DNA of 64,000 bases from Nitrosospira sp. Nsp14 (GTDB taxonomy: Bacteria > Pseudomonadota > Gammaproteobacteria > Burkholderiales > Nitrosomonadaceae): assembly GCF_900113575.1 (NCBI RefSeq), contig NZ_FOPV01000013.1, positions 1 to 64,000 on the forward strand, read 5' to 3'. Of this stretch, positions 6,414-63,876 are shown piece after piece. The notes beneath the pieces are model-generated. The model made no database searches and was not told the DNA's origin. It saw nothing but the letters and a program-made list of their open reading frames with translations. Numbering within the stretch: position 1 is the first letter of the stretch; every line of letters starts with the position of its first letter. A program made the position numbers and the translations under genes.

Positions 6414-7580
6414 TTATGCCAGCAGGCGTTTGCGCCGGGCAATAAACTCGATCAGTCCCAGCCCAGCTAAAAACATGGCGTAGGATTCGGGTTCAGGGAT
6501 AACGGCGATGGGAACGGAAATGGCGATAACGTGCCCCGCATGATTGATATCCATAGCTCCAGTTAGAACAACTCCATCCGGCAGATCGACAAGCGTATTG
6601 AGATCGGTCATGCCCATCCCATCGGCGCCGGTGATAAAAGCACGGGGTTCCCCGCGGCGTACCCCTCCATGCGTGTAAGACTCTCCCACCACTTGCCCGA
6701 TGTCGTTGATACCCTCAGCATCGCTGTAATCATCGCCGCCTAAAGTGCCAAGATCTCTCATGCCGACCCCATCAGGGCCGGCGATGAATGCATGGGACCC
6801 CCCGTCAGCCGACGCCGTGATAGACTCTCCCACCACCTGCCCTGCTTCGTTGATGTCCAAAGCCGCGCTGGCAATACCACCTAAAGTGCCAAGGTCTCTC
6901 ATGCCGACCCCATCAGGGCCAGTGATGAACGTACGGAATTCCCATCCAGTGAGAGACTCTCCCGTCACCTGTCCAATCTCGTTTATGCCATAAGCTGAGG
7001 TGTTATTACTGCCTAACGTGCCAAGGTCTCTCATGCCCACTCCGTTGGGGCCGGTGATGAAAGCACGGGATCCCCCTCCAGGCAACATGTAAGACTGCCC
7101 CACCACCTGTCCCGCCTCGTTGACGTCATAAGCCCTGCTGAAATTATCACCGCTTAATGTGCCAAGGTCTCTCATGCCGACCCCATCAGGGCCGGTGATG
7201 AATGCATGGGGTTCCCCTCCATCCGTGTAAGACTCTCCCACCACCTGCCCAGCATCGCTGATCCCATTAGCCCTGCTGTAATTATTACCGCCTAAAGTGC
7301 CAAGGTCTCTCATGCCGAACCCATTAGGGCCGGTGATAAAAGCACGGAGTTCCCCTCCAGCCGTATAAGACTCTCCCACCACCTGCCCGGAATCGTTGAT
7401 CGCCCGGGCGATCGTCCGACTTCCACCCAAACTCCCAAGGTTGATCGCTGTCCTGCTGCTCAGGTCAATGAAATAGGAAGCTTCTTGCTGGGCAGCGGCA
7501 TGAGTCACAAAACCGAGGCCAGCGAGCAGGGCCGCCCCGAGGATAAAACTATGCACCTTGGAGCTATGGGTAATTTTCAT
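6414..7580 (-). CDS. HAF-repeat PEP-CTERM protein (6 repeats)
   Basis: A 388-residue secreted surface protein. Residues 1-30 form a signal peptide ending HAAAQQ. Six HAF repeats of about 43 residues follow, each built as DLGTLGG-x-ARxINDxGQVVGESYTxGGxxHAFITGPxGxGMR. A degenerate terminal unit (DLNTLVDLPDGVVLT) leads to the PEP-CTERM signal: VIPEPESYAMFLAGLGLIEF, then ARRKR. The PEP-CTERM tail directs exosortase processing at the inner membrane and export to the surface or matrix. The HAF family has no known activity and may form a beta-propeller-like or solenoid fold. One of ten related loci here, 41 kb from the main cluster. Confidence 0.9.
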   Translation of the reverse strand: MKITHSSKVHSFILGAALLAGLGFVTHAAAQQEASYFIDLSSRTAINLGSLGGSRTIARAINDSGQVVGESYTAGGELRAFITGPNGFGMRDLGTLGGNNYSRANGISDAGQVVGESYTDGGEPHAFITGPDGVGMRDLGTLSGDNFSRAYDVNEAGQVVGQSYMLPGGGSRAFITGPNGVGMRDLGTLGSNNTSAYGINEIGQVTGESLTGWEFRTFITGPDGVGMRDLGTLGGIASAALDINEAGQVVGESITASADGGSHAFIAGPDGVGMRDLGTLGGDDYSDAEGINDIGQVVGESYTHGGVRRGEPRAFITGADGMGMTDLNTLVDLPDGVVLTGAMDINHAGHVIAISVPIAVIPEPESYAMFLAGLGLIEFIARRKRLLA

Positions 7581-10060: not shown

Positions 10061-11221
10061 ATGAAAAAAACAAATTATTTTGAAATAATACGCCGCTTTG
10101 CTGCGATCGCCGCCATGAGTATAGGCCTTGGTTCTGGTTCCGCAGCTTATGCTCAAGCCTACTCATGGGTAATGGGCCCGAATGGCGAGGGATTGACCAG
10201 ACTCGGGAGTCTCGGTGGAGATGAAACGGTAACCTTTGCACGTGCAATCAATGACGCCAGGCAGATAGTTGGGTGGTCTTCCACAGCGGCAGGTAAAACT
10301 CATGCTTTTCTCACCGGCCCGAATGGCGCATCCATGACTGATCTCGGCACTCTGGGAGGAGAGAACAGCTACGCCTATGGCATCAATAATGCCGGGCAAG
10401 TGGTGGGGACATCCGACGCCGAGTTTTGTTGTGTAAATAGGGCCTTTATCACCGGCCCGAATGGCACCGGAATGACCGCGTTTCTGCCGACCGCGGGTGC
10501 TCAGCGGGACCCATACAGCGTCGGCCTTGGCATTAACAATACCGGGCGGGTAGTCGGTTATTCGACTGATAACATTCGTTCTCATCTGCTGATAACCGGC
10601 CCCAACGGGATGAACAGACTCGATACCGGTTTTCAGGAAGGGGTTGCCAGCGCCATTAATGATGCCGGGCAGGCAGTGGGAACGTTAAGCCCCCTCGAGG
10701 AATTTACCCACCACGCCTTCATAACGGAGCCGAACACGGCGACCGTAACCAAACTCGGCACGCTCGGGGGTAGCGAAAGCCACGCCACCGACGTTAACGC
10801 CTCAGGTCAGGTGGTAGGATGGTCACGCACCGCTGGAGGGGAGTTCCATGCCTTCATCACTGGGCCGGATGGAGCCGGCATGACCGATCTGGGCACGTTG
10901 GGCGGAACCGTTAGCATGGCGACGGGCATTAACGATGCCGGTCAGGTAGTTGGATATTCCACCAAGGCGGAAGGCGCCGAACATTACGCCTTTATCACGG
11001 GCCCTGGCGGCACCGGCATGACGGATCTCAATTCGTTAGTAACCCTGCCGGACAGGCTGACTCTAAGCGAGGCCCAAGGGATCAACAATTCGGGGCAGAT
11101 CATTTCGCTTAGCGGAATAGCCCCCATACCCGAGCCTGCCACCTATGCCTTGATACTCGCCGGCCTCGGCCTGGTAGGTTTCATGGCAAGATGCAGAACT
11201 CGAGCTACCATCAACCAATAG
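10061..11221 (+). CDS. HAF-repeat PEP-CTERM protein (divergent repeats)
   Basis: A 386-residue surface protein with a signal peptide (cleavage near SAAYAQ, residue 31), about six HAF units and the anchor PIPEPATYALILAGLGLVGF followed by MARCRTR. Units 3 and 4 have lost the TLGG core (FLPTAGAQRDPY and DTGFQEG), so this copy is the most diverged of the family. A GGAG ribosome-binding site precedes the ATG. Its last 11 bases overlap the end of the convergent gene at 11211. Confidence 0.9.
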   Translation: MKKTNYFEIIRRFAAIAAMSIGLGSGSAAYAQAYSWVMGPNGEGLTRLGSLGGDETVTFARAINDARQIVGWSSTAAGKTHAFLTGPNGASMTDLGTLGGENSYAYGINNAGQVVGTSDAEFCCVNRAFITGPNGTGMTAFLPTAGAQRDPYSVGLGINNTGRVVGYSTDNIRSHLLITGPNGMNRLDTGFQEGVASAINDAGQAVGTLSPLEEFTHHAFITEPNTATVTKLGTLGGSESHATDVNASGQVVGWSRTAGGEFHAFITGPDGAGMTDLGTLGGTVSMATGINDAGQVVGYSTKAEGAEHYAFITGPGGTGMTDLNSLVTLPDRLTLSEAQGINNSGQIISLSGIAPIPEPATYALILAGLGLVGFMARCRTRATINQ

Positions 11222-48390: not shown

Positions 48391-48486
48391 ATATGCTGCG
48401 CCAAGCCTTCCACGATGTGCTGTAAGAAAAGGAAAAGAAATTAAAAATAATTTCGATCCCACCAATCGCGCAGTTTCCTGAATATT
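48391..48486. repeat. interspersed repeat (type A), copy 1
   Basis: Matches 51687-51892 and 59650-59940: GATGTGCTGTAAG, GAAAAGAAAT, AAAAATAATTTC, CCAATCG, CTGAATATTC. This copy is truncated at the end. Confidence 0.65.
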
Positions 48487-48524
48487 CGCGGGCCTGCCCC
48501 GTGTGGCTCGGCCTCAAACGCTGC

Positions 48525-49416
48525 TTAGATAAGCTTACGGCGGTTTGCGATAAAACCCAGCAGACCCAGACCGGCCAACAGCATGGCATAGCTTTCCGGT
48601 TCTGGAATACCTTGTGCGATTACTTGGCCCATGTTGTTAATGTCCCTGGCTTCGGTTAGAAGCACCCCTCCCGGAACTTGAACCAATGAATTGAGGTTCG
48701 TCATGCCCCTCCCCATTGGGACCTGTGATGAAGGCATGGCCAGCCCCTCCATCAGCAGGGTAAAACAATCCCACCACTTGCCCTGCATCATTGATTTCTC
48801 TAGCGTAACTCCATTCGAGTTCTCGTGGGTCAAGGCTTCTCATCCCCATTCCGTCTGGACCAGTGACGAAAGCGTGGGTCGTCCCTTTGTCAGTATCGGC
48901 GTTCCCCACCACCTGTCCGGTAGCATTGATGCCATAGGCGTCGCTGGTAGCCCCGCCTAAGGTACCAAGGTCCCTCAGGCCAACCCCATTGGGACCGGAG
49001 ATGAAAGCATGCGCAACAAAGCCTGGGGTGCTAGTGTTGGAATACCCCACCACCTGTCCTGAGTCATTGATCCCGGAAGCGTAGCTATAGTCTCCACCGA
49101 GTGACCCAAGATCGGTCATGCCGACGCCATTCGGGCCCGTGATGAAGGCATGGAGCTGCCCGTTGTCCGTGCTGAATTCCCCTACCACCTGCCCTGCGTC
49201 GTTGATTCCGAGAGCGATGCTAGAGTTTCCACCGAGTGTGCCGAGGTCGGTCATGCCGACGCCATCTGGGCCCGTGATGAAGGCGCGGGCCTGCTGCCCG
49301 TTGTCAGTCTTGGAGTACCCTACCACCTGCCCCGCGTCGTTGATGGCTGTTGCATCGATGCATCGTGGCCGCCCTGAGGCATTTCGGCAGCCAGCGCAAG
49401 CCTGAGAGTTCTTCAT
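48525..49416 (-). pseudogene. HAF-repeat PEP-CTERM gene, 5'-truncated and frameshifted
   Basis: HAF units run from about 49360 to 48710 and match the 54.1-kb gene module for module (about 90% identical by eye). The signal peptide and first unit are replaced by unrelated sequence near 49360. At 48706-48709 (CCCC) one extra C shifts the frame before NLNSLVQVPGG, so the anchor GIPEPESYAMLLAGLGLLGF falls into another frame (48525-48833). It cannot make a secreted, anchored protein as is. Confidence 0.8.
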
Positions 49417-49477
49417 CCGCCTTGCGACGAAGCTTCAGCATCCCGGAATTTATTAGCCGGAAGTTTATTTTACAGGC

Positions 49478-50611
49478 CTATCCCAGGCTAAAAGCTTCCC
49501 CACCCATCTTCTTCCGCCGCGCGATGAATCCAACAAGGGCCAGACCGGCAAGCAATAGGGCGTAGCTCCCAGGTTCGGGAACGATTCCGATGGCAATGAC
49601 CTGCCCCGTGTTATTGATGCCAGTGGCTCGCCCTAAAACCACCCCGCCAGGCACATCCACCAGGGAATTCAGGTCAGTCATGCCCAGGCCGTTGGGGCCG
49701 GTGACAAAAGCATGAATATCACCTGCGGCGGTCCAGGAGTCTCCCACTACCTGTCCGGAGTCGTTAATACCCGCAGCCACAGCCGAGCCTCCGCCCAGAT
49801 TACCGAGATCGGTCATGCCCGAGCCATTTGGGCCGGTTATAAAAGCGTTAGGATAATACAAATCATATGGATCTGGGACGGCCATGGAGCCTCCCACTAC
49901 TTGCCCGGAAGCGTTAATATCGTTAGCGTGACTACGGTTTCCCCCCAGAGTACCGAGGTCTCTCATACCCACGCCGTTGAGGCCGGTCATAAAAGCATGA
50001 CGATCACCTGTGGCAGTTCGGGACTCTCCCACTACCTGCCCGGACCCATTGATACCATAAGCGAAACTGAGGTTTCCCCCCAGGGTGCCGAGGTCGGTCA
50101 TGCCCACGCCGTTGGGGCCGGTAATAAAAGCATGAGCCGTTCCCGGGATGTAGGAGATTCCGGCTACTTGGCCGTAAGCGTTGATGCCTTGAGCGAAACT
50201 TTCCCCACCCAAAGTACCGAGATCTCGCATGCCCACGCCGTCGGGGCCGGTGATGAAAGCATGTGAGCCAGAAAAACCCGCTACTTGCCCAGAATCGTTA
50301 ATACCAAAAGCGCCACTATTGCCTCCGCCCAGAGTACCGAGATCGGTCATGCCTACGCCGTTGGGGCCGGTAATAAAAGCATGGAGATCTCCGGCGGCGG
50401 TCCGGGACTCTCCCGCTACTTGCCCGGAAGCGTTGATACTTCGAGCGATACTGTAATTTTCGCCCAGGGTACCGAGGTAGGTCACCTCACGGGTGTTAAG
50501 GTCAACAAGATATGAGACCTCTTGCTGGGCAGCGGCAGGAAACACGAAACCGGCGCTTACGGCTGCGGCGAGGACAAGGCTGGGAATTTTGAAGCTGTGC
50601 AGGATTTTCAT
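49478..50611 (-). CDS. HAF-repeat PEP-CTERM protein (6 repeats)
   Basis: A 377-residue protein with signal peptide (cleavage near FPAAAQQ), six HAF units and the anchor IVPEPGSYALLLAGLALVGF followed by ARRKKMGG. Unit 2 is shortened (AGFSGSHAFITGP) and unit 5 carries an insert (VPDPYDLYYP), so units differ in length. AAGGAGATTCACC precedes the ATG. Exported and anchored through exosortase; function unknown. Confidence 0.9.
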   Translation of the reverse strand: MKILHSFKIPSLVLAAAVSAGFVFPAAAQQEVSYLVDLNTREVTYLGTLGENYSIARSINASGQVAGESRTAAGDLHAFITGPNGVGMTDLGTLGGGNSGAFGINDSGQVAGFSGSHAFITGPDGVGMRDLGTLGGESFAQGINAYGQVAGISYIPGTAHAFITGPNGVGMTDLGTLGGNLSFAYGINGSGQVVGESRTATGDRHAFMTGLNGVGMRDLGTLGGNRSHANDINASGQVVGGSMAVPDPYDLYYPNAFITGPNGSGMTDLGNLGGGSAVAAGINDSGQVVGDSWTAAGDIHAFVTGPNGLGMTDLNSLVDVPGGVVLGRATGINNTGQVIAIGIVPEPGSYALLLAGLALVGFIARRKKMGGEAFSLG

Positions 50612-50807
50612 GGTGAATCTCCTTCGTTGTCAGGAAGAATCGCTGTGAGGTTCTCTGAAAGCAAGGACTCTTCGCTTAAAGATAGACCAGGGCCCGATTA
50701 AATAAGGGAAGGGAGAGCAGCAAACTTTCCCGGTGAGAGAGCGGTAGCGCAATTACACAGCAGCTGCAGGTACAGCCTGCTGGAAATCGCCAAAGTCCTA
50801 TCCCGGG

Positions 50808-51266
50808 CTAAAGGCTGTCTCCCTCATCTTCTTTTCGCCCCGCAATGAAACCGACCAGGCCCAGGCCCGCAAGAAAGAGCGCATAGATCTCCGGCTCCGG
50901 GATAATAGCGCCGATGGCAATGACTTGCCCTGCGTTATTAATGGCGGAGGCTGAGGTTAGAACCACTCCACCCGGCAGATCAACGAGCGAATTGAGGTCC
51001 ATCATGCCCGTGCCATTGGGGCCGGTGATGAAAGCATGGAAAATGCCCCCAGCCGTTCTAGAATCACCCACCACTTGCCCGGCGTCGTTGATGCCAGAAA
51101 CAGAGTTGTCACCGCCCATGCCAAGCTCGGTTGCTGTCTTGCTGTTAAGGTCAACGAGGTATGAAAGCCCTACTTGTGCGGAAGCATTGGTGCCGAAACC
51201 CAGACAAGCAGAAAATGCTGCAGCCAGGATAAAAGCACGGATTTTAAAGCCAGGGGTGATTTTCAT
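50808..51266 (-). CDS. miniature HAF PEP-CTERM protein (1 repeat)
   Basis: A 152-residue protein that has signal peptide (ASAQVG), one HAF unit (ELGMGGDNSVSGINDAGQVV, HAFITGPNGTGM), the terminal unit DLNSLVDLPGGVVLT and the anchor IIPEPEIYALFLAGLGLVGF. It looks like a full-length copy from which five repeats were lost by recombination between modules. Confidence 0.85.
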   Translation of the reverse strand: MKITPGFKIRAFILAAAFSACLGFGTNASAQVGLSYLVDLNSKTATELGMGGDNSVSGINDAGQVVGDSRTAGGIFHAFITGPNGTGMMDLNSLVDLPGGVVLTSASAINNAGQVIAIGAIIPEPEIYALFLAGLGLVGFIAGRKEDEGDSL

Positions 51267-51513
51267 GATAAATCCTCTTTATTTTTTTCGACGAAAGGAT
51301 AGGACTGCCAGGCTGTCAGAAACCACATACTCCATCTTAAAATAGATCAAGGATTTGAATTGTCAACGCAACGAAATGCAAGATGCGTTAAGCATCAGGA
51401 AGGGTTCTTTGGGAGGATGGTTGCCAGCATCGTATCCTCCGGAAAGGTATCGTTTCGCTCTATTAATTCAATCAAGGTGCTGGAAATTTAAACCCTTAAA
51501 GACAGGCCGCTAT

Positions 51514-51708
51514 TTATCCTGCATTTTTCGCCTTCTTGCGTCGCGCCATAAGCCGGACCAAGCCTAAGCCGGCCAGCATCAACGCATAGGTTTCGGGTTC
51601 GGGAACAGTGCCAACGGCAATGACCTGTCCGTTATTATTGATGTCGCCGGGGGAGGTTAGAATCACTCCCTCCGGCAGTTGACGACACGCTGCGCCAAAC
51701 CCCTCCAC
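51514..51708 (-). pseudogene. 3' fragment of a HAF PEP-CTERM gene
   Basis: Only the end is kept: LPEGVILTSPGDINNNGQVI, then TVPEPETYALMLAGLGLVRL with ARRKK. It meets a type A repeat copy at 51687. No signal peptide or full HAF unit remains. Confidence 0.8.
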
Positions 51709-51892
51709 GATGTGCTATAAGGAAAGAAAAAGAAATAAAAATAATTTCAATCCTGCCAATCGTGCAGCTTCCTGAATATTCAATATTCATACTTGGAATG
51801 CAGCACTTTTTCGCGCAATTATTTGTTTTACAGTTTGTTCCCAGTCATATGACTGTTTGGAATGGGCATGACTTTTAGTAGGGGCTTTCCAG
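51687..51892. repeat. interspersed repeat (type A), copy 2
   Basis: Longest shared form with 59650-59940. It includes the palindrome CAGTCATATGACTG (near 51841) and ends CATGACTTTTAGTAGGGGCT. Relative to this copy, the 59.6-kb copy carries about 95 extra bp. Confidence 0.7.
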
Positions 51893-52150
51893 CAATCTGG
51901 ATGGGGCGTAACGGCACCCGGAATGAATATTCAGAACATTCCGTATTTACAAGAAATGGAAGAAGTAATCACAAAAAGGCCGCCCCTCGCTAAGGAGAGG
52001 GCCTCTATGACCAGCCCACAACACGCTATTGCTAGCTATTTTTCAGTGCGGACGCCACGTCTGGGTAAAACTGCTCCCATCAACCTGATTCCAGCCAGGA
52101 ACATTGATAGGTTTCCGTCTCGTGGATGGCGAGTGCAAAATTGACTAAGC

Positions 52151-52219
52151 ACTAAACGGCCTGCTTGTTTACCCATGATAGATATTTTTACTGCGAGGGA
52201 GTGCACATACAGCAAGCGG
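52151..52219. repeat. interspersed repeat (type C), copy 2
   Basis: Matches 46831-46898; lies just beyond the end of the 52.2-kb HAF gene. Confidence 0.55.
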
Positions 52220-52248
52220 AATTTATAGATCCCTGTCTCCAGGTATTT

Positions 52249-53430
52249 TTACGCTAGGCGGCGCTTGCGCCCCGCAATGAACCCTGCCAAGCCAAGCCCG
52301 GCAAGCATCAAGGTATAGGTTTCAGGTTCAGGAACTTCTGGAACAACTGCTTCTGAAACTCCCCCAGCAATCACCTGTCCATTGTTATTAATATCAATAG
52401 CATATGTTAGGGTCACTCCCTTCGGCATGTAACTCAGTGAATTAAGGTCCATCATACCCATTCCATCGGGGCCGGTGAGAAAGGCACGGTATTCACCTTC
52501 GGCAGTGCGAGATTGTCCCACCACCTGCCCCGCATCGTTAATGCCACCAGCACTGCTGTAATCCCCGCCTAAAGTACCAAGGTCTCTCATCCCCATTCCA
52601 TCCGGGCCGGTGATGAAAGCATGTGTCTCCCCTTCCCCTACAGAGGTGAGTGAACTCCCCACCACCTGCCCAATGTCATTTATGCTCCCAGCCGTGCTGG
52701 TATCACCACCCAAGGTACCAAGGTCTCTCATCCCCGTTCCATCAGGACCGGTAATGAAGGCATGGAAAGGGCCTTCAGCCGTGTGAGACTGCCCCACCAC
52801 CTGCCCCGCATCGTTGATACCACCACCAAAGCTGTCGACATAACGGACCGCACCGCCTACTAGTGTGCCGAGATCTCTCATCCCCGTTCCATTAGGACCG
52901 GTAATAAAGGCATGGTTAGCGACTCCGTCAAGGAAAGAGTGCCCCACCACCTGCCCCACATTGTTGATACCGTTACCATAGCTGTCATTCTTGCCAAAAG
53001 CGCCTAGGTCTTTCATCCCTCTTCCATCTGGACCCGTGATGAAGGCATGGTATTCACCTTTAACAGTGCTGGATTGTCCCACCACCTGCCCCGCATCATT
53101 AATGCCACCTGGATAGCTCCACCATCCACCAAGGGTGCCAAGGTCTCTCATCCCCATTCCATCAGGGCCGGTAATAAAGGCATGTTCCGCCCCACCCCCA
53201 ATTCCGTCCACTTGAGAGTATCCCACCACCTGTCCGGCATCGTTGATGCTCATAGCATTAGCGCCGTAATCCCTGCTTAAACTGCCAAGATTGGTCACTG
53301 TCCTGCTGTTGAGATCAATAAGGAAGGAATGATGATCTTGGGCGATGGCATCAGTACCGAGGCCAAGGCTGGGAGTCATGGCTGCGACAAGGATGAGGTT
53401 GCGGATTTTGAAGCACTGGTTGAATGTCAT
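52249..53430 (-). CDS. HAF-repeat PEP-CTERM protein (6 repeats)
   Basis: A 393-residue protein. Start 53430 is set by GGAGGATACG just ahead; the open frame extends 29 codons further with no signal peptide. Signal peptide ends DAIAQ. Six HAF units (some with GMRDLGTLGGDYSSAG, one with DLGAFGKNDSYGNG), terminal unit NSLSYMPKGVTLT, anchor VPEPETYTLMLAGLGLAGF with AGRKRR. Confidence 0.9.
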   Translation of the reverse strand: MTFNQCFKIRNLILVAAMTPSLGLGTDAIAQDHHSFLIDLNSRTVTNLGSLSRDYGANAMSINDAGQVVGYSQVDGIGGGAEHAFITGPDGMGMRDLGTLGGWWSYPGGINDAGQVVGQSSTVKGEYHAFITGPDGRGMKDLGAFGKNDSYGNGINNVGQVVGHSFLDGVANHAFITGPNGTGMRDLGTLVGGAVRYVDSFGGGINDAGQVVGQSHTAEGPFHAFITGPDGTGMRDLGTLGGDTSTAGSINDIGQVVGSSLTSVGEGETHAFITGPDGMGMRDLGTLGGDYSSAGGINDAGQVVGQSRTAEGEYRAFLTGPDGMGMMDLNSLSYMPKGVTLTYAIDINNNGQVIAGGVSEAVVPEVPEPETYTLMLAGLGLAGFIAGRKRRLA

Positions 53431-53695
53431 CGTATCCTCCGGAAAGGCGGCGTTTGGTTTGGCATCCATTGCTTCAAAGTTGGTAATGGACCTTAGCTTG
53501 TAGCCAGCCCAGCACACATACTGAAGTACATCCGGATACGCTTTCAGTTTCCTTTATAGATGAGTCTGGAGAAAAAACAAGTTGGAGCTAAAAGAGGGGA
53601 AGACACGAAACGGAATTTTCTGCACCCCAAGCCGCATTCATAGCCTATGGTTTGGGAACTCGGGAGAGAGCGTCCAGTGCCGATTCCTGCTTGGC

Positions 53696-53778
53696 AACAT
53701 AGATCGTTTCAGTTCGAAAGCAGAAAAACGGAGGCCAATTCCAGGACCTTCCCGAAGAATTATCGTAAAGACCTGGCC
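53696..53778. repeat. interspersed repeat (type B), copy 2
   Basis: Matches 48171-48251. Confidence 0.6.
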
Positions 53779-53905
53779 GGTTTGATACGCCTCTTTAACG
53801 GGTCTCGTCAAAACCGACCGATTGTGCAACGCGGCTCCCAACATTGATACGACCATGATTATCAGCCGTGCATCTTGAAGCAGTCGCGGCAGCTGAGGTG
53901 GGTGG

Positions 53906-53929
53906 TATATTGCCGCACGCGACAATATA
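53906..53929. promoter_or_regulatory. AT-ended dyad, possible protein site
   Basis: TATATTG (53906-53912) and CAATATA (53923-53929) flank a GC-rich centre; a stronger relative with 12-bp arms lies at 59038-59069. Confidence 0.4.
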
Positions 53930-54129
53930 TCGCAGCCCGGAAGCGCTTGAATAGAAAACGAGGCTCGGCTGCTTTAGAAGCAGGGTGAATAGATGTACTA
54001 GTTTGGATTTGATCGGACAAACAATGTCAGATTCGAACTGCCGCCAAGTACCAGGAAGCGGCCCTCAGGCGCTGGCAACAATAAGCCATGGGCCGCGCCC
54101 GCCCCGTTGTGCTCGGCATCAAACGCTGC

Positions 54130-55248
54130 TTAAACAGTCTTGCGGCGGCGCGCGATAAAGCCCAGCAGACCCAGACCGGCCAACAGCATGGCATAGGTTT
54201 CCGGTTCGGGAATACCTTGGGCGATTACTTGGCCCATGTTGTTAATGTCCTTGGCTTCGGTTAGAAGTACCCCTCCCGGAACTTGAACCAATGAATTGAG
54301 GTTCGTCATGCCCATGCCATCGGGGCCAGTGATGAAGGCATGGCCAATGCCGGTTTGGAAATCGTAAAATACTCCCACCACTTGCCCTATGTCGTTGATT
54401 TCTCTAGCATAACTCCACCCGATTTCCCGTGGGTCAAGGCTTCTCATCCCCATTCCGTCTGGACCAGTGACGAAAGCCTGGGACGTCCCTTTGTCAGTAC
54501 CGGCGTTCCCCGCCACCTGGCCGGTAGCATTGATGCCATAGGCCACGCTAGTAGCCCCGCCTAAAGTGCCAAGGTCCCTCAGACTCACCCCATCGGCACC
54601 CGAGATGAAAGCATACTGAAGAAAGCCTGAGGCGCTAGTGTTGGCCCCTCCCACCACCTGTCCCTCCTCATTAATGTCGTAAGCAGCGCTGGGATCGCTA
54701 TAAAGCGTACCGAGATCTCTCATTCCCGTCCCATTAGGGCCGGTGATGAAGGCGTGGTACAGTTGTCCGTTGTCCCTCCCAGACACCCCTACGACCTGCC
54801 CCGTGTCGTTGATCCCGGAAGCGTAACTATAGTCTCCGCCGAGTGTGCCGAGATCGGTCATGCCTACGCCATCCGGACCCGTGATGAAGGCATGCAGCTG
54901 CCCTTTGTCAGTGCTGGATTGCCCTACCACCTGCCCTGCGTCGTTGATCCCGGAAGCGCGGCTATTTCCACCGAGCGTACCGAGATCGGTCATGCCTACA
55001 CCATTAGGGCCCGTGATGAAGGCGTGGATCTGCCCGTTGTCAGTTCCGGAGTACCCTACCACCTGCCCCGCGTCGTTGATGGCTGTTGCGTCGACGTTTC
55101 CGAGATCGGTTACTGTCTTGCTATTGAGGTCGATCAGGTATGAATGTCCTGGTTGTTGTGCGGAGGCGTTGGGGCCGAATCCCAGACCAGCAGAAAATGC
55201 TGCAGCAAGGATGAGATTGCGGAAATTGAAGCAATGGTTGAGTGTCAT
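54130..55248 (-). CDS. HAF-repeat PEP-CTERM protein
   Basis: A 372-residue protein. Start 55248 follows GGGAGGATACG, the same leader as the 52.2-kb gene. Signal peptide ends NASAQQ. Units: a truncated first (DLGNVDATAINDAGQVV), four near-standard and one deviating (SLDPREIGWSYAREIND), then NSLVQVPGGVLLT and the anchor GIPEPETYAMLLAGLGLLGF, with ARRRK. It is the closest relative of the 48.5-kb pseudogene. Confidence 0.9.
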   Translation of the reverse strand: MTLNHCFNFRNLILAAAFSAGLGFGPNASAQQPGHSYLIDLNSKTVTDLGNVDATAINDAGQVVGYSGTDNGQIHAFITGPNGVGMTDLGTLGGNSRASGINDAGQVVGQSSTDKGQLHAFITGPDGVGMTDLGTLGGDYSYASGINDTGQVVGVSGRDNGQLYHAFITGPNGTGMRDLGTLYSDPSAAYDINEEGQVVGGANTSASGFLQYAFISGADGVSLRDLGTLGGATSVAYGINATGQVAGNAGTDKGTSQAFVTGPDGMGMRSLDPREIGWSYAREINDIGQVVGVFYDFQTGIGHAFITGPDGMGMTNLNSLVQVPGGVLLTEAKDINNMGQVIAQGIPEPETYAMLLAGLGLLGFIARRRKTV

Positions 55249-55437
55249 CGTATCCTCCCGCAAGCGGCGTTCAATTGATGAATTATCCGTTGCTTCAATC
55301 TAGGTGATGGAACCTGGGATGTCAAAGCACGCTTTTATTTATGTGCGAACGCGCTTGATTCGGGCGCTCTATTTGGCCGAACAGGCGATGATTCCGCCAT
55401 GAATAAGGTGTTTTCCCTGACCTGACTGTTTTGTATC

Positions 55438-55495
55438 GAAAGCAGTAACTTGAATCCGACAACCAGGGTCGGATCGAATCTCGACTACGACACTT
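55438..55495 (+). repeat. interspersed hairpin repeat (type D), copy 2
   Basis: Same 56-bp unit as at 8107-8162, with stem ATCCGAC/GTCGGAT (55454-55460, 55468-55474) around loop AACCAGG. Confidence 0.65.
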
Positions 55496-55659
55496 TACGG
55501 CTGCCGGTCCTTACTTTCCGCCGATTGACGACAAAGAAAACATTCTGAGTTTAGTGGTGGGGAGTATGTTGCTGCTGCGATCCCGGCGTTGCCAGATAGC
55601 AACAAAGCGGCCGAGGATTTTCAGGAAAGCGTATCAGGTACCTAATTTAGGCAAAGTCC

Positions 55660-55875
55660 ATCGCTACTGCTGTGTTTGTGAAGCCGGGAGTAGATGTCTT
55701 CTGCTCGCTAGGCCGCTCGGCTCCTATACTTTTCCCTTGATTGATCTAAGCTGGATTGTGGGAAATGGTAGCCGGGCAGTTATCGCTGACGCAGGGGACC
55801 GCGCTGTCGGCACGCTTCAATCAAATCAGGAGAGGCTCCGAATTTTAATAAACCCTCTCTTACTGAGGAAAAATC
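55660..55875 (+). promoter_or_regulatory. duplicated promoter/leader region of HAF genes
   Basis: This segment is repeated with about 85% identity at 57078-57290. Shared landmarks: CATCGCTACTGCT, GGCCGCTCGGCTCCTATACTT, TTGATTGATCTAAGCTGGATT, TGGTAGCCGGGCAGTTAT and GTCGGCACGCTTC. TATACT is a good -10. Both genes should be regulated alike. Confidence 0.5.
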
Positions 55876-56874
55876 ATGAAAATTACCCATCGCTCTAAAA
55901 TCCAAAGCTTCATCCTGGCCTCGGCGCTGGGTATCGGGCTGAGTTTTGCTTCCCCCATCTCCGCACAGGTACGTTCATACATCTTGGACTCCAATGGCAA
56001 AGGACTGACCGATCTCGGGACGCTGGGTGGAGGTAACAGTTGGGCCCGTGGCATCAACGACGCCGGGCAGGTGGTGGGGGAATCCAGCACGGCCGCAGGT
56101 GTTAGCCATGCCTTTATCACCGGCTCCAATGGCCTGGGCATGACCGATCTCGGGACGCCGGGTGGAGGTTCCGGTTCCGCCTTCGGCATCAACGACGCCG
56201 GGCAGGTGGTGGGGGACTCCTTCATGACGTCCGCAGATATTTACCATGCTTTTATCACCGGCCCCAATGGCGTGGGCATGACCGATCTCGGCACGCTGGG
56301 CGGGGTTGTAGGTTACAGTTCCGCCTGGGGCATCAATGACGTCGGGCAGGTGGTGGGGGACTCCTTTACGGCCGCAGGTTTTTGACATGCCTTTATCACC
56401 GGCCCTAATGGCGCGGGCATGACCGATCTCGGGACGCTGGGTGGACCTGAAAGTTTCGCCCGTGGCATCAACGACGCCGGGCAGGTGGTGGGGGTGTCCG
56501 TCCCGGCCGCATATGCTCCGCATGCTTTTATCACCGGCCCCAAGGGCGTGGGCATGACCGATCTGGGGACGCTGGGTGGAAGTCACAGTTACGCCTGGGG
56601 CATTAATGACGCCGGGCAGGTGGTGGGGAAGTCCGACACGGCCACAGGTGCTTACCATGCCTTTATCACCGGCCCCTATGGCGCGGGCATGGCCGACTTG
56701 AACTCGTTGGTGAGTCTGCCGGGCACAGCTGTGCTAACGGAGGCCCGAGGAATCAATAACCATGGGCAAATCGCCGTCATTGGCAGCCCTATCCCCGAAC
56801 CCGAAATGTATGCCATGCTGTTGGCCGGTCTGGGTCTGCTGGGCTTTATCGCGCGCCGCCGCAAGACTGCTTAA
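55876..56874 (+). pseudogene. HAF-repeat PEP-CTERM gene with internal nonsense codon
   Basis: A 332-residue frame interrupted by TGA at 56383-56385 (TTT TGA CAT where sister units have a sense codon before HAFITGP). Before it: signal peptide (PISAQV) and three units; after it: two units, NSLVSLPGTAVLT and anchor PIPEPEMYAMLLAGLGLLGF, all in the same frame. Otherwise undamaged. The truncated product would be secreted but not anchored. Confidence 0.8.
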
Positions 56875-57077
56875 ACACCGTTCGATGCTGAGCCACAACG
56901 GGGCGCGCGCCTTAGCGGCTTATTGTTTCCAGCACCTGAGAATTCCTTCCTGGCACTTGGCGGCAGTTCGAATCTGACATTGTTGCCCGATCAAATCCAA
57001 ACTAGTACAAGAGTGTCGTAATAGAGATTTGATCCGGCCTTGGCTGTCAAATTCAAGTTGCTGCTTTCGATACAAAA
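56875..57077. repeat. shared 3' flank of HAF genes (type E) and inverted type D copy
   Basis: TTGTTTCCAGC-CCTGAG and CTGGCACTTGGCG-CAGTTCG, ACATTGTT, CCGATCAAATCCAAACTA recur after the 58.8-kb gene (58809-58945) and, inverted, after the 54.1-kb gene (54000-54129). An inverted and diverged copy of the type D repeat follows at 57005-57070. Confidence 0.6.
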
Positions 57078-57290
57078 CATCGCTACTGCTCAGTGTTTGT
57101 GAAACCAAGAGTAGATTTTTCCGCTGGATAGGCCGCTCGGCTCCTATACTTTACCCTTGATTGATCTAAGCTGGATTGTGAGAAATGGTAGCCGGGCAGT
57201 TATCCTTGACGCCAGGGGACGTCGGCACGCTTCCCTCAACTCACGAGAGCCCCGAATCTTCAAAAACCCTCTCATGCTGAGGAAAAAGTC

Positions 57291-58808
57291 ATGAAAATTA
57301 CCCATAGCCCTAAAATCCAAAGCTTGCTCCGGGCCGCAGCCCTGAGTATCGGGCTTGGTTTTGTGTCCCCCGTCTCCGCACAGGAACATGCATACATCGT
57401 AGACTCCAGTGGCAAGGGACTGACCGATCTCGGGACGCTGGGTGGAGGTTCCAGTTGGGCCCAGGGCATCAACGACGCCGGGCAGGTGGTGGGGACCTCC
57501 ACCCCAGCCGCAGGTCCTGTCCATGCTTTTATCACCGGCCCCAATGGCGACGGCATGACCGATCTCGGGACGCTGGGTGGGTATGTAGTAAGTGTCGCCT
57601 ATGGCGTCAACGATGCCGGACAGGTGGTGGGGTACTCCGACACGGGCTCAGGTAATTTCCATGCCTTTATTACCGGCCCCAATGGCGCGGGCATGACCGA
57701 TCTCGGGTCGCTGAGTGGAGGTGACAGTTTCGCCTCTGGCATCAACGGCGCCGGGCAGGTGGTGGGACGGTCCTACACGGCCGCAGGTTTGCGTGCTTTT
57801 ATCACCGGCCCCAATGGCGTGGGCATGACCGAGCTCGGGACGCTGGGTGGAGACACTTACGCTTCTGGCATCAACGACACCGGGCAGGTGGTGGGGATCT
57901 CCACCACGGCCGCAGGTGCTTACCATGCCTTTATCACCGGCCCCAATGGCGGGGGCATGACCGATCTCGGGACGCTCGGTGGATCGGAAAGTTACGCCTC
58001 TGGCATCAACGACGCCGGGCAGGTGGTGGGGATTTCCACCACGGCCGCACGTGCTTACCATGCTTTTATCACCGGCCCCAATGGCGTGGGCATGACCGAC
58101 CTCGGAACGCTGGGTGGAGGTTACAGTGACGCCACTGGCATCAACGATGCCGGGCAGGTAGTGGGAGGCTCCGTCACGGCCGCAGGCGATCGGCACGCTT
58201 TTATCACCAGCCCCAATGGCGTGGGCATGACCGATCTCGGGTCGTTGGGTAGTTTCGCCCGTGGCATCAACGACGCCGGGCAGGTGGTGGGGGCGTCCGA
58301 CACGGCCACAGGTGCTTACCATGCCTTTATCACCGGCCCCAATGGCGCGGGCATGACCGATCTCGGGACGCTGGGTGGAGATTACAGTTACGCCTCTGGC
58401 ATCAATGACGCCGGTCAGGTGGTGGGGGACTTCGACACGGGCGCAGGTGCTTGGCATGCCTTTATCACCGGCCCCAATGGCGTGGGCATGACCGATCTCG
58501 GGACGCTGGGTGGAGATTCCAGTTACGCCTATGGTATCAACGACGCCGGGCAGGTGGTGGGGCGGTCCGACACGGCGGCAGGTGCTTGGCATGCCTTTAT
58601 CACGGGCCCCAATGGTGGGGGCATGACCGACTTAAACTCGTTGGTGAGTCTGCCGGGTGGAGCTGCTCTAACCGACGCGACGGGGATCAATAACCTGGGG
58701 CAAGTCGCCGTCATTAGCAACCCTATCCCCGAACCCGAAACCTATGCCATGCTGTTGGCCGGTCTGGGCCTGCTGGGCTTTATCGCGCGCCGCCGCAAGA
58801 CTGCTTAA
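57291..58808 (+). CDS. HAF-repeat PEP-CTERM protein (9 repeats, longest copy)
   Basis: A 505-residue protein: signal peptide (PVSAQE), nine HAF units of 40-44 residues in near-perfect tandem, terminal unit NSLVSLPGGAALT and anchor PIPEPETYAMLLAGLGLLGF with ARRRKTA. Units 4, 5 and 8, 9 are nearly the same in DNA, so the repeat number can change by slippage or recombination. Unit 7 is shortened (GSLGSFARG). The upstream gene is a near-duplicate in leader and flanks. Confidence 0.92.
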   Translation: MKITHSPKIQSLLRAAALSIGLGFVSPVSAQEHAYIVDSSGKGLTDLGTLGGGSSWAQGINDAGQVVGTSTPAAGPVHAFITGPNGDGMTDLGTLGGYVVSVAYGVNDAGQVVGYSDTGSGNFHAFITGPNGAGMTDLGSLSGGDSFASGINGAGQVVGRSYTAAGLRAFITGPNGVGMTELGTLGGDTYASGINDTGQVVGISTTAAGAYHAFITGPNGGGMTDLGTLGGSESYASGINDAGQVVGISTTAARAYHAFITGPNGVGMTDLGTLGGGYSDATGINDAGQVVGGSVTAAGDRHAFITSPNGVGMTDLGSLGSFARGINDAGQVVGASDTATGAYHAFITGPNGAGMTDLGTLGGDYSYASGINDAGQVVGDFDTGAGAWHAFITGPNGVGMTDLGTLGGDSSYAYGINDAGQVVGRSDTAAGAWHAFITGPNGGGMTDLNSLVSLPGGAALTDATGINNLGQVAVISNPIPEPETYAMLLAGLGLLGFIARRRKTA

Positions 58809-58945
58809 GCAGCGTTGATGCCGCGCCACAAAGGGTCGGACCCGCCCTTGTGGAGGCATATTGTTTCCAGCGCCTGAGGACCGTTTCCTGGCACTTGGCG
58901 CAGTTCGAGGCTAACATTGTTTGTCCGATCAAATCCAAACTAATA
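58809..58945 (+). repeat. shared 3' flank of HAF genes (type E)
   Basis: Same block as 56875-57004 and, inverted, 54000-54129. Confidence 0.6.
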
Positions 58946-59037
58946 CTGGATAGATGCGATAGATGATTGTTCTGTAATAGCTTCTACTGTCTTTCTCCCT
59001 TGCCACTATACTACTTTCAAAGCAGCCCACCCCATGG

Positions 59038-59069: not shown

Positions 59070-59335
59070 TTCCCAAGCTGGTATCCCCTCTATAATCGGG
59101 CTACTTCTTGTTGCTAAGCATTAGTACGACTAAGTGTTGGTGTCTGTACTTTCAGCGTTTTCCCCCCTAGGTTTCATTACCTATTTAGGTTCGTAACATT
59201 CGCTCAAGGATGTTACAAGCCTGTTCTTTTCCCCTTCGCTCACCTCAAGACCCGGGCTATCAGAAACGCTCGGCGGCCACAATAGAAAATTGCTTGGAAA
59301 GCGAATCCAAGTAGAGACGGGGTTTAGCACCTCTC

Positions 59336-59640
59336 CAGCACCGCGTCCACCTCGATGTACTTGCGGTATTCGTCCAGCGCGGTTGCCCACACACAGTGCA
59401 GCCCGCCATGCGCCAGCGCCGGTTTGAGCATATTCCCCGCATCGATCGCGCTTCCGCCTTGCGCCTACCACGGTGTGAAGCTCGTCAATAAACACGATCG
59501 TGCCCTCGCTCTGCGCGATTTCCCTCAAAACCGATTTCAGCCTTTCTTCGAATTCGCCACGGTATTTGGCACCGTGAGCAATTCCGCCGTATCCGGCGAT
59601 AGCACTTCTCGTCCTTCAGCGTTTCGGGCACTTCGCCATT
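59336..59640 (-). pseudogene. clpB: clpB fragment
   Basis: Pieces of the first AAA domain of ClpB in two or more frames: [11 protein letters not shown], then [20 protein letters not shown]-like text ending [11 protein letters not shown] (Walker B), a frameshift near 59465, then [19 protein letters not shown] and [16 protein letters not shown]. About 100 residues are kept. It abuts a type A repeat at 59650. Confidence 0.8.
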
Positions 59641-59649
59641 GACGATCCG

Positions 59650-59940
59650 TTACACAAGGCCCTCCGCGATGTGCTGTAAGGAAAGGAAAAGAAATAAAAA
59701 TAATTTCAATCCCCCCAATCGGGCAGTTTCCCGAATATTCAATATGCATAACCGGAATGCAACACTTTTCCGTGCTAACCGAAGCTACAGGCGACTTGGC
59801 GCGGGGTTCATTTCTCGTGTGCGACAAAATGTCACATGCGGAAATATGCCACATTCCTAATTCAAATCATTTGTTTTACAGTTTGTTCCCAGACATATGA
59901 CTGTCTGGAATGGACCATGACTTTTAGTAGGGGCTCTCCC
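59650..59940. repeat. interspersed repeat (type A), copy 3 with insertion
   Basis: Matches 51687-51892 at both ends. The centre has about 95 extra bp carrying a CACATGCGGAAATATGCCACA stretch (split here as CACATGCGG and AAATATGCCACA) that resembles half of the 59.04-kb dyad. Confidence 0.65.
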
Positions 59941-60669: not shown

Positions 60670-60918
60670 CTTTACACTTTGTACCGTTTCTACTCATCTG
60701 CTACAGGAGAAACTAGAAAAACATACACCTAAACAGATAGGCATAATTTATGCTTAAGGTTATTCTATCCTTTTTATATAAAAAGCAGGCACACAATGCC
60801 CTGCGACAAACAGGTTCGGCCACGTTAGCGCGCATTGTCATCGGAAGGACTTATTTTTTAGCAGACTCGTTTATTCTGTTTCAAACTTGGCTTCCTCGTA
60901 GTTTCTTGATTGGAGCGT
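60670..60918. other. intergenic region
   Basis: No gene seen. It must hold the promoter for the large regulator. Confidence 0.4.
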
Positions 60919-63876
60919 ATGTTAGCCAAGACCAGCCGCCCTCGTCTCTCCGCCGTCTACCAGCGCTCGCGCTTGTTTGATCAGCTGGACATGGCATGGA
61001 GAAAACATTCGGTCACCCTCGCCCATGGGCCACCTGGAGCGGGTAAAACCACGCTCGTCTCAAGCTATATTGAATTTCGAAATCGTCCCTGCCTTTGGTA
61101 TCAGGTGGATTCGGGCGATGAGGACGTAGCCACGTTCTTTCACTATTTCGGCTCCGCGGCAAAGGAACATTTACCGGTCGACGCAACCCCGTTGCCTGAT
61201 TTCGACCCGGGTACCGCGGCAGACCTCGTAAGATTCAGTCGACAGTACTTCCGCAAATTTTACGCTGGACTGAAAAGCCCGCTTGTCGTGGTGCTGGACA
61301 ACTACCAGGAGCTGGCCGACGCCTCCCCCTTGCACACCGTGGTACAGGTCGCCTGCGAGGAAATTCCAGAAGGCTATCACATCGTTATCGCTAGTCGCGA
61401 AGCCTGCCCTCCGCCAATCGCCTCGGCGCGCTTTAGGCAGGCGTTGACGGTGATTGGTGCGGACGATCTTGTTTTAACGCATGAGGAGACGTGCGGAATT
61501 GCGGAGTTACAAGGGATGAAGCAGCCTTCCCCAGCCACGACACTAGCCCTGCACGCACGTAGCGCCGGATGGATGATGGGCTTGATGCTGATGCTCGAGC
61601 GTGCGGATGGTATCCGCAATGACAGCGATCTGAGCCTTTCCCTCGGAGACGATCAGGGAGAATCTGTATTCGATTATTTCGGTGTCGAAGTTTTCAAGAA
61701 ACTCGACACTACTTGCCACGACCTGCTATTGCAAAGCGCGTTGCTCCCCAAGATGACCATACCCCGCGTTACGCAACTCACCGGCACGCCCAAAGCCGGC
61801 GAGCTGCTGCGGGAACTGTTACGGCGAAACCATTTCATCACACGCCATGCGGGAAAGGAAGCGGCGTATCAGTTCCACCCCCTCTTTCGGGAGTTTCTCC
61901 TTGAACAAGCAATGGCGCGGTACTCTAAGGATGCGCTAGAGTTAAAGTACTGTAGAGCTGCTGAGGTGCTGATAACGGACGGCGATAACGAGGGTGCCAT
62001 CGGCTTGCTGGAGCAGGCAGGCAACTGGCGGCGCCTGGCGGAAGTAATCTTGGCGACCGCCTCGACTCTGAAGGCACAGGGCCGTGATGCAACCCTCGTG
62101 GCCTGGATGGAGAAGCTGCCCGCCGACGTGATCGACACGGATCCGTGGCTGCTCTACTGGCACGGTAGCAGCAAGGCATTCTCGGACCCTGCCGCCAGCC
62201 AGGCAATTCTTGAAAATGCCTATCGGCAATTTCGCATGATGGACGACCTCGTGGGTATGGCGATGAGCTGGGCTGGGCTTATGGGTGCGATTTTCAACAT
62301 GTACCAAAACCTCCGGCAGATGGACGCATGGGTAGAGGAATTCAGCGAACGACTTATTGGCCGACTTGAGCTGCTGCCACATGACCTTCAGGTGGCGGTG
62401 ACCGTCGCTTTCGTTATCGCGCTATCGTTCCGCCAGCCTCTGCATCCTGACCTGTTGTATTGGCGGGAACGATTGCGGAAGGTGCTGGAGTCCGAAACCC
62501 GGGCTGCAAATCGACCTCTGTTGCGCCACCATCTGGTGACGCATCACATCTTGCGCGGCCAGCATGCGGAGGCCGAATCCGTTCTGAGCATGCTTTACTA
62601 CGCAACCAACCTGCCCTCGGCTGAACGTCCGCCTCGCACCCCCGTGGACTATATAAACGAGGCCGCGGTTGCGCTGCATACCGGCATGAAAGAGCGCTGC
62701 TTGCGAGCAGTTCATGATGGGTTGCGCGTCGCTGAGGGTACCGGCGATCGTCGTCTCGATTCGGTTTTTCTCCAGCTTGGCGCGGCCATGAGCCTCAATC
62801 GAGGCGATCTTGGACAGACAGACGAGTTCCTCGCCGCCTTCGAGCGTTTGGCTGAATCTATGCCATTTGTGGACCGGGGCGCCTATTATGCTGTGGCGGC
62901 CTGGCGCAAGTTTTATGCAGGAGAGCCTGCGCTGGCACTACATCTTTTAGGCCGGGCGGTCGCTGCTTCGGAAGCTCGGGGCGCACCCTACTACATCGCC
63001 GTCGATAACCTTGGCTTCGGGCTGCTGCTTCACCTCTGTGGCAGGAAGAGCGAAGCGCTTCTGTGTCTGAAGATGGGACGCAGGCTCGGCGCAAGCATCA
63101 AAAATGCGTTGATCGAGTACGCCTACCAGCTCTTTTCAGCCTTCATCGCGTTGGATACGGGCGGGAAAAATCACGCCCTCTACCATCTCGCTACCGGCAT
63201 GCGGCTCGGCCAACAACATGGCTACATGCATTTCTTTTTTTTCCCCCCGAGAGTAATTTCAAAACTATGTTCGATAGCACTCGGGGCCGGAATTGAGACC
63301 GAGTATGTTCGTATCCTCATTGAACGCAATGAACTAAGCCCGGACCCCTCTTGGCGAGACGCCGAGTCATGGCCCTGGCCCATCCGTATTTATACCCTTG
63401 GACGTTTTAGCGTAGTCAAGCAAGGCACAGCGCTGCAATTTTCCGGAAAAGCCCAGAAGAAACCCCTGGAGTTGTTGAAGGTGTTGATCGCGTTGGGGGG
63501 TCGCGATGTGTCAGAAGCGAGGCTGGCAGATGCCCTCTGGCCCGATGCTGAAGGCGACGCGGCTTCACAGGCGCTTGCGACCAACTTGTTCAGGTTGCGT
63601 AAACTCATTGGAGAACAGGCGATTCGCAGGCAGGAGAATCGCCTTACAATCAATCCGACCTTCTGCTGGGTAGATTGCTGGGCGTTCGAACGATTGTCTA
63701 GGGAGAGCCCAGGCGATTCGCAGAGATGTCTTGAGAAACTCAGGAAGTTCTATCAGGGCCCTTTCCTCGACGGAACAGACGATGCCCCCTGGGCCCAGTC
63801 AATGCGCGAGCGATTGAAGGCAAGGTTCGCACGACTCACGCAGAATCCAGGCAATTCATCCGGCAAGAGATCGTAG
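60919..63876 (+). CDS. large AAA-TPR-BTAD transcriptional regulator
   Basis: A 985-residue protein. ATG at 60919 follows GGAG; an in-frame TTG lies three codons earlier. NTPase at about 15-300 (Walker A GPPGAGKTT, 37-45; VVLDNYQELADASPLHTVV Walker B region), MalT-like winged and helical TPR repeats to about 810, then a winged-helix DNA-binding domain (IRIYTLGRFSVVKQGTALQF, 835 on) and BTAD end (LALDALWPDAEGD-like text, LATNLFRLRKLIGEQAIRR). SARP/BTAD regulators activate distant operons. It may control the HAF cluster next to it; that is inference. Confidence 0.85.
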   Translation: MLAKTSRPRLSAVYQRSRLFDQLDMAWRKHSVTLAHGPPGAGKTTLVSSYIEFRNRPCLWYQVDSGDEDVATFFHYFGSAAKEHLPVDATPLPDFDPGTAADLVRFSRQYFRKFYAGLKSPLVVVLDNYQELADASPLHTVVQVACEEIPEGYHIVIASREACPPPIASARFRQALTVIGADDLVLTHEETCGIAELQGMKQPSPATTLALHARSAGWMMGLMLMLERADGIRNDSDLSLSLGDDQGESVFDYFGVEVFKKLDTTCHDLLLQSALLPKMTIPRVTQLTGTPKAGELLRELLRRNHFITRHAGKEAAYQFHPLFREFLLEQAMARYSKDALELKYCRAAEVLITDGDNEGAIGLLEQAGNWRRLAEVILATASTLKAQGRDATLVAWMEKLPADVIDTDPWLLYWHGSSKAFSDPAASQAILENAYRQFRMMDDLVGMAMSWAGLMGAIFNMYQNLRQMDAWVEEFSERLIGRLELLPHDLQVAVTVAFVIALSFRQPLHPDLLYWRERLRKVLESETRAANRPLLRHHLVTHHILRGQHAEAESVLSMLYYATNLPSAERPPRTPVDYINEAAVALHTGMKERCLRAVHDGLRVAEGTGDRRLDSVFLQLGAAMSLNRGDLGQTDEFLAAFERLAESMPFVDRGAYYAVAAWRKFYAGEPALALHLLGRAVAASEARGAPYYIAVDNLGFGLLLHLCGRKSEALLCLKMGRRLGASIKNALIEYAYQLFSAFIALDTGGKNHALYHLATGMRLGQQHGYMHFFFFPPRVISKLCSIALGAGIETEYVRILIERNELSPDPSWRDAESWPWPIRIYTLGRFSVVKQGTALQFSGKAQKKPLELLKVLIALGGRDVSEARLADALWPDAEGDAASQALATNLFRLRKLIGEQAIRRQENRLTINPTFCWVDCWAFERLSRESPGDSQRCLEKLRKFYQGPFLDGTDDAPWAQSMRERLKARFARLTQNPGNSSGKRS

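Follow-up and report, generated by a model that had tools for sequence, protein, structure and literature searches.

The window analysed in this work is a stretch of 64,000 nucleotides from the genome of the soil ammonia oxidiser Nitrosospira sp. Nsp14 (contig NZ_FOPV01000013.1, positions 1 to 64,000), here called G000; G004, G008, G015 and G022 are other genomes of the same genus. Between 48.5 and 58.8 kb the window carries a cluster of genes encoding HAF-repeat proteins with a PEP-CTERM tail, which comprises eight gene units, five intact and three broken. The window has two more intact genes of this kind, at 6.4 and 10.1 kb (Table 1). These genes are likely to belong to a large Nitrosospira family of exosortase-sorted PEP-CTERM proteins, built as seven-bladed propellers, which diversifies by blade recombination and selection. 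The family, the prevalence of seven modules, the recombination events, the selection pattern and the promoter motif presented below were computed; the fold was predicted.

A preliminary description of this DNA had placed eight family members in 10 kb and two more at 6.4 and 10.1 kb, which is borne out by the profile searches. Matches to TIGR02913 (HAF_rpt, NCBIfam) over the cut-off were found in eight of the nine open reading frames (ORFs), with E values from 3e-10 to 1e-112, far above chance. PF07589 (PEP-CTERM) passed the cut-off in seven of the nine, which are all the ORFs with a 3′ end. The Pfam matches of the window HAF proteins are PEP-CTERM and DUF3466, plus a sub-cut-off match to MoaF_like. 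All eight window copies with a 5′ end present a signal peptide and, before the start, a sequence resembling a ribosome-binding site (RBS), both judged by eye or pattern. The exosortase profile PF09721 matches twice in the window genome (E of 2e-78 and 1e-71), and the presence of two exosortase genes makes export and sorting plausible.

The damage described for three copies, a 5′ truncation, a 3′ fragment and an in-frame stop codon, was also found, and undamaged modules are kept in these copies. In relation to the 54.1-kb copy, the 48.5-kb copy has lost its 5′ end and a 138-bp block corresponding to one module, in addition to smaller insertions or deletions (indels) and a change of frame at about 48714. 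We read the broken copies as decaying pseudogenes, though some elsewhere keep the promoter motif.

Table 1. Coordinates of the HAF-repeat genes, their promoter-like elements and the right-hand flanking gene in the window
Feature	Position	Strand	Evidence or remarks
Intact HAF PEP-CTERM gene, 7 modules	6414..7580	-	Profile match, module HMM
Intact HAF PEP-CTERM gene, 7 modules	10061..11221	+	Profile match, module HMM
Broken HAF copy	48525..49416	-	ORFs 48637-49416 and 48525-48833; TIGR02913
Intact HAF PEP-CTERM gene, 7 modules	49478..50611	-	TIGR02913, PF07589, module HMM
Intact miniature gene, 2 modules	50808..51266	-	Signal peptide, first and last modules only, PEP-CTERM
Promoter-like element of the miniature gene	51336..51369	-	Family-specific motif, TTGACA-N17-TATTTT
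3′ fragment of HAF gene	51514..51681	-	Ends in PEP-CTERM tail
Intact HAF PEP-CTERM gene, 7 modules	52249..53430	-	TIGR02913, module HMM
Intact HAF PEP-CTERM gene, 7 modules, modelled with AlphaFold2	54130..55248	-	TIGR02913, module HMM
Promoter-like site of the 54130 gene, TTGACA-N17-TAGATT	55297..55325	-	Below matrix threshold
Broken HAF gene, 6 modules	55876..56874	+	In-frame TGA at 56383-56385
Intact HAF PEP-CTERM gene, 10 modules	57291..58808	+	TIGR02913, module HMM
AAA/BTAD-type transcriptional regulator, right flank	60910..63876	+	Sub-cut-off Pfam matches

Module number and predicted fold

The HAF family is large in the window genome, where at least 150 HAF repeats passed the cut-off in several clusters (150 of the 297 candidates were scored). 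Among 22 other species of the genus the number of matches ranges from 0 to at least 144, with at least 123 in G015 and at least 144 in G022 (150 candidates scored in each).

Modules were counted with a hidden Markov model (HMM) built from 29 window modules, which also covers the first and last modules of each gene; it misses diverged modules, and several genes counted as six may have seven. Exactly seven modules were found in 93 of the 111 genes called intact, which come from 17 of the 18 sampled genomes, and the count of seven recurs in 16 of these 17. For G000, G015 and G022 the count covers almost every reported HAF locus, and for the other 15 genomes, including G008, the one without an intact gene, only the loci around the best profile matches. 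The intact calls rely on patterns for the signal peptide and the PEP motif, which a few one-module fragments also pass. Set aside from this count were 88 ORFs (split genes, fragments and weak matches at a lax threshold) and one ORF at an edge; the survey leaves out locus L035, a fragment in G000, and the G015 HAF match at C2:100322. When the single-ORF units of the three main genomes are considered, 54 of 80 have seven modules, and the other 26 are distributed among five or fewer (15), six (nine), eight (one) and ten (one). The exceptions in the window are gene 57291 (ten modules), the miniature 50808 (two) and the broken 55876 (six). A repeat number from 1 to 9, as first described, holds for TIGR02913 stretches per ORF; with the first and last modules included, it runs from 2 to 10 and is mostly seven.

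The modules, of about 130 bp, had been presented as similar DNA, and the similarity proved to be moderate only: full modules of the window genome have a mean DNA identity of 0.69 within genes and 0.63 between genes. There is no signal of positional homology between the modules of different genes (0.632 for the same position vs 0.625 for different positions). In gene 57291, modules 4 and 5, and likewise 8 and 9, are 90-91% identical.

The AlphaFold2 model of the 54130 protein, obtained with an alignment of six window proteins, has a predicted local distance difference test score (pLDDT) of 85 and a predicted template modelling score (pTM) of 0.82. It contains 27 strands of at least three residues and a C-terminal helix; every one of its five full modules shows four strands. 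The Foldseek search of this model against PDB returned 334 matches at E ≤0.001, and among the 50 matches listed are TolB, the Photorhabdus PLL/PHL lectins, sortilin, acylaminoacyl peptidases and the designed Pizza protein, which we take to be propellers. The model thus points to HAF repeats as the blades of a seven-bladed beta-propeller, and this blade count agrees with the module count of seven. The likeness of the model to fucose-binding lectins is predicted at the fold level only. In a sequence search of PDB, the HAF profile had no match and the 10-module protein had one weak match (a DUF4150 protein, E 0.007). Forms with two and four modules might act as oligomeric propellers.

Turnover and selection among relatives

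The HAF cluster at 40-66 kb of contig C2 of G015 was compared with the one at 40-60 kb of contig C1 of G022. The flanks and one inner block are collinear and 94.7-97.8% identical; this does not hold for two inner segments, and the gene content differs between these close relatives. Reciprocal best matches in G022 were found for 19 of the 26 HAF units of G015, 16 of them at an identity of at least 92%. For the 42 HAF units of G000, reciprocal best matches at 64-80% identity were obtained in seven cases with G022 and in six with G015, and no window unit is among them. Nine window units were scored (all but the 51.5-kb fragment); they have no clear orthologue in G015 or G022, with best matches of 65-71%; for the miniature 50808, the best match is 80% over one fifth of the length. 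The regulator at the right flank has counterparts in G015 and G022, with 85 and 84% protein identity and 83-86% DNA identity, while the left side of the cluster found no counterpart within the compared stretches of these genomes. According to passages of Haft et al. (2006; PMC1569441), PEP-CTERM proteins show rapid expansion and loss, and their paralogues include a clade rich in one species, printed there as 'Nitrospira multiformis'.

Two sets of repeated sequences accompany the cluster. A 3′ flank (TCCGATCAAATCCAAACTA...) is conserved behind three copies (54000-54090, minus strand; 56917-57034 and 58855-58972, plus strand) and is a footprint of duplication together with the flanks. A non-coding element of about 80-150 bp, with copies 87-90% alike at 48405-48487, 51701-51816 and 59640-59790 (+), has three matches in the genome, all at this locus, and the end of a KALRDVL-like reading frame precedes the 59.7-kb copy. 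The 48.4- and 59.7-kb copies enclose the cluster as direct repeats, through which it could be lost.

Changes that respect module borders were found in relatives. A seven-module gene of G022 (locus L054), located about 7 kb from the counterpart of the right-hand regulator, corresponds in G015 to a gene of four modules, which carries a 375-bp in-frame deletion equivalent to three modules. The surrounding 1.5 kb or so is otherwise 99.9-100% identical, save upstream indels of 1 and 12 bp. In G015 the four-module gene and the regulator are on separate contigs (C6 and C10), and the linkage is seen in G022 alone. At the break there is an exact direct repeat of 23 bp, which belongs to the framework DNA encoding AFITGPDG. 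In G004, an 11-module HAF gene (L127, 348-2108, minus strand) contains an exact repeat of 608 bp at an offset of 543 bp, which corresponds to four modules, and G015 has an exact 135-bp tandem module inside a split gene. The 16 reciprocal best pairs of G015 and G022 at 92% or more include three short fragments; of the 13 others, 12 have the same module number and one is the change from seven to four. In a further pair outside that list, the G022 gene is truncated by an imprecise deletion. Module order is not identical everywhere among related genomes, and the suggestion that recombination varies these proteins holds as far as repeat-mediated change of module number and the differing cluster are concerned.

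The columns of the module alignment whose entropy reaches 3 bits or more in the window genome are 20, 21, 23, 25, 36, 38, 41 and 43, to which column 44 was added in a larger alignment. They mostly alternate with conserved columns and fall in strands 3 and 4 and in the loop after them. Columns 21, 23, 25, 36 and 38, on one beta-hairpin, would form a hypervariable patch together with 20, 41, 43 and 44. For similar module pairs within genes of other species (n=49), the ratio of nonsynonymous to synonymous rates (dN/dS) was 2.06 (1.53-2.77) at the variable columns and 0.25 elsewhere. Pairs between genes gave 1.31 (1.02-1.69) with local dS in all genomes (58 pairs); with pooled dS the ratio was 1.96 in all genomes and 1.82 outside the window genome. 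A test for diversifying selection between orthologues did not reveal any: at the variable columns of orthologous modules of G015 and G022 (34 non-identical pairs), the ratio was 0.30 when dS was taken locally and 0.32 (0.14-0.52) when it was pooled. This pattern is what would be expected of blades that diversify after copying and then settle.

The process we propose has the following steps. HAF genes would multiply and decay through duplication. Within a gene, recombination through conserved framework DNA, for example the part encoding AFITGPDG, would delete, duplicate or copy blades while keeping the frame and joining them at their borders, and selection would bring most of the survivors back to seven blades. 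After a blade duplication, eight or nine mostly alternating positions of the third and fourth strands and the next loop would diversify fast, and once the protein had settled these variable positions would be conserved.

Neutral birth and death, in which HAF repeats would be a selfish family multiplied by unequal crossing over and its variable positions unconstrained, is an unlikely explanation. It agrees with the many broken copies, with the nine window units lacking clear orthologues and with the similarity within genes, which unequal crossing over would yield; against it stand the low ratio of the framework, the ratio of about 2 at variable columns after within-gene duplication and its fall between orthologues, in addition to a constrained blade number and a promoter motif specific to the family in two genomes. 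The miniature 50808 presents a dN/dS of 0.37 against a close full-length relative, part of which may predate the shortening. Given this ratio, an undamaged start and tail, and a promoter motif that scores best in the window, it may be functional.

Promoter motif and exchange between copies

The motif GCCTTGACAATTCAAATCCTTGATCTATTTTAAG is found 80-115 nt upstream of the start in 18 of 28 HAF genes of the window genome. The matrix behind it was derived from these genes of G000, with G022 as an independent check. Across the whole genome, the pattern CCTTGAYAATTC-N10-TCTA with at most one mismatch gave 13 matches, all of which precede HAF genes, some broken copies included, and the same holds for all eight matches in G022. 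At two mismatches, HAF genes follow two of five matches in the window genome and one of five in G022, and a reversed-pattern control with up to two mismatches gave three matches in the window genome and none in G022. In other species, 30 of 105 ORFs exceeded the 99% null, vs 0 of 87 coding windows, with ORFs of imprecise start and broken copies included. In the window, the motif is full in the miniature and occurs in weaker forms at 6414 and 10061. The 55876 and 57291 genes have a common and distinct upstream region, about 90% identical.

A sigma-54 promoter with TTTACA, as described for proteobacteria in PMC1569441, was also considered and set aside: the 28 upstream regions score as shuffles do and TTTACA occurs in one of them. 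In the relevant passages of that paper the sigma-54 motif precedes 99 of 167 genes, so its absence here is compatible with membership of the PEP-CTERM proteins. From the motif and the start regions, each intact copy is probably transcribed from its own promoter, and the repertoire would be presented at once, with no switching. We infer that the proteins are expressed and located at the cell surface, with a ligand-binding role in the matrix or in cell-cell recognition.

With respect to exchange between copies, no conversion tract was found between the 48.5- and 54.1-kb copies, which are 88.8% identical over 811 sites with a longest identical run of 50 nt (p=0.18), nor between the 55.9- and 57.3-kb copies in the run test over three stretches (p from 0.15 to 0.74). 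No pair of full modules from different genes of the window genome exceeds an identity of 0.874 (136 modules). In the window genome, 36 of 136 modules find their best match in their own gene, and the same is true of 28 of 104 modules in G022 and of 22 of 87 in G015, while shuffles of gene labels give 3.4-4.0. This excess indicates that homogenisation occurs mainly within genes. A module pair 0.933 identical was found between non-orthologous genes of G015 and G022.

Several observations weigh against the interpretation of a propeller family diversified by blade recombination and selection. The Foldseek TM-scores are 0.40-0.54, with root mean square deviations of 4.8-13.7 Å, which support the fold class and do not prove the closure of the ring. 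With local dS, the pairs between genes outside the window genome gave 1.26 (0.87-1.82; 35 pairs), an interval that includes 1. The pairs used to measure selection were chosen by similarity and are not fully independent, since orthologues may count twice, and the true intervals would be wider. Before 49478, 52249, 55876 and 57291 the promoter motif is weak or missing, while 54130 passes the looser pattern only, and some motif-bearing genes are broken copies. There is also exchange between genes in G022, where a module pair 0.956 identical is shared by two neighbouring genes, one of them broken. Draft assemblies could distort exact repeats.

The preliminary description had compared the locus to those in which surface proteins vary by recombination between expressed and silent copies, and this part of it was not supported. 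Silent-cassette antigenic variation is known from pilE/pilS and vlsE; one or a few expressed copies would here be rewritten by conversion from the truncated and nonsense copies. The window resembles such systems in its cluster of intact and damaged homologous copies, the damaged ones with undamaged modules, and the 0.956 module of G022 and the unequal gene content of one cluster in close relatives could be taken in the same way. We regard it as quite improbable, since the window presents no sign of a single expression site, each copy with a 5′ end has its own RBS-like sequence and signal peptide, many genes of the family carry its promoter motif, the tested pairs lack conversion tracts and the best module pair between genes reaches only 0.874. 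The prevalence of seven modules also argues against it, and the variable sites conserved in stable orthologues are unlike the expectation for a switching antigen. A contribution of collapsed or expanded repeats to this variation, as an assembly artefact, is very improbable: several genomes are drafts, and short-read assemblies of near-identical propeller repeats are described as unreliable in a passage of PMC12222747, yet modules of the window genome differ by about 30% on average, seven recurs in 16 of the 17 genomes with intact genes, and the sequences around the two ends of the 375-bp event match at only 86 of 160 positions, which makes assembly collapse unlikely for this event.

Other genes near the cluster were also observed. 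A truncated duplicate of a carotenoid oxygenase (RPE65) gene (43114-43818, minus strand), near-identical by eye, is separated by about 5 kb from the complete gene (37228-38637, minus strand) and adjoins an ORF for an HNH nuclease and an AAA ATPase. For a bestrophin-like gene (46968-47804, minus strand), the other 22 genomes of the genus yielded nothing beyond weak matches of 26-29% in G001. The ORF at 59181-59528 (minus strand) has no Pfam match at E 0.001 and is probably a decayed fragment; we take one motif in it to resemble ClpB.

Comparison with known systems

By profile, the window genes are members of the TIGR02913/TIGR02595 PEP-CTERM proteins described in PMC1569441. In the main text of that paper the word 'propeller' does not occur, and its passages on PEP-CTERM proteins contain neither blade-level recombination nor a promoter of the TTGACA type. 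In the open literature searched, 'HAF repeat' or TIGR02913 appeared only in PMC8685578, a result that does not establish absence in print beyond this scope. A passage there attributes a likely role in attachment to an extracellular HAF repeat domain of an Agrobacterium protein, and the main text does not contain the word 'propeller'.

HAF proteins also resemble the recently amplified beta-propellers treated in passages of PMC9218822 and PMC6805158, which present highly similar blades, continuing amplification and an expected return to a preferred number. They differ in that, for the HAF family, a contraction was caught between near-identical genomes. The terms 'HAF', 'PEP-CTERM' and 'Nitrosospira' are not found in the main text of PMC9218822. 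If our interpretation is true, the HAF repeat is a propeller blade, and blade gain, blade loss, the return to seven and positive selection can be followed in one bacterial genus. The family-specific promoter motif would be a handle on regulation, and the whole suggests how the exosortase-sorted proteins of ammonia oxidisers diversify.

A parallel is offered by the HNWD genes het-d and het-e of Podospora, which, as passages of PMC1805685 describe them, share with the HAF family propeller repeats, concerted evolution, changing repeat number and pseudogene copies. In the same source, Paoletti et al. (2007) report for each of these fungal WD40 repeats positive selection on codons that flank a conserved codon, and passages of PMC12222747 describe the repeat number that is usual for them and predict propellers of seven blades. 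It is conceivable, and we put it forward tentatively as a rather doubtful extension, that HAF proteins form a blade-shuffled repertoire of cell-surface recognition propellers, with blades exchanged in frame across the conserved framework, strong selection for seven blades, positive selection on the hypervariable patch and each specificity then frozen. In bacteria, such a repertoire would correspond to the HNWD allorecognition of fungi, for the recognition of kin or partners in aggregates or against phages or predators. HET and NACHT effector domains are not among the Pfam matches of the window HAF proteins. HNWD proteins are fungal intracellular NOD-like receptors (NLRs) whose repeats are exchanged within and between genes, whereas HAF proteins are exported bacterial PEP-CTERM proteins with similarity mostly within genes and a strong preference for seven modules. 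By analogy, HAF genes appear to work like HNWD genes, yet they are not HNWD genes.

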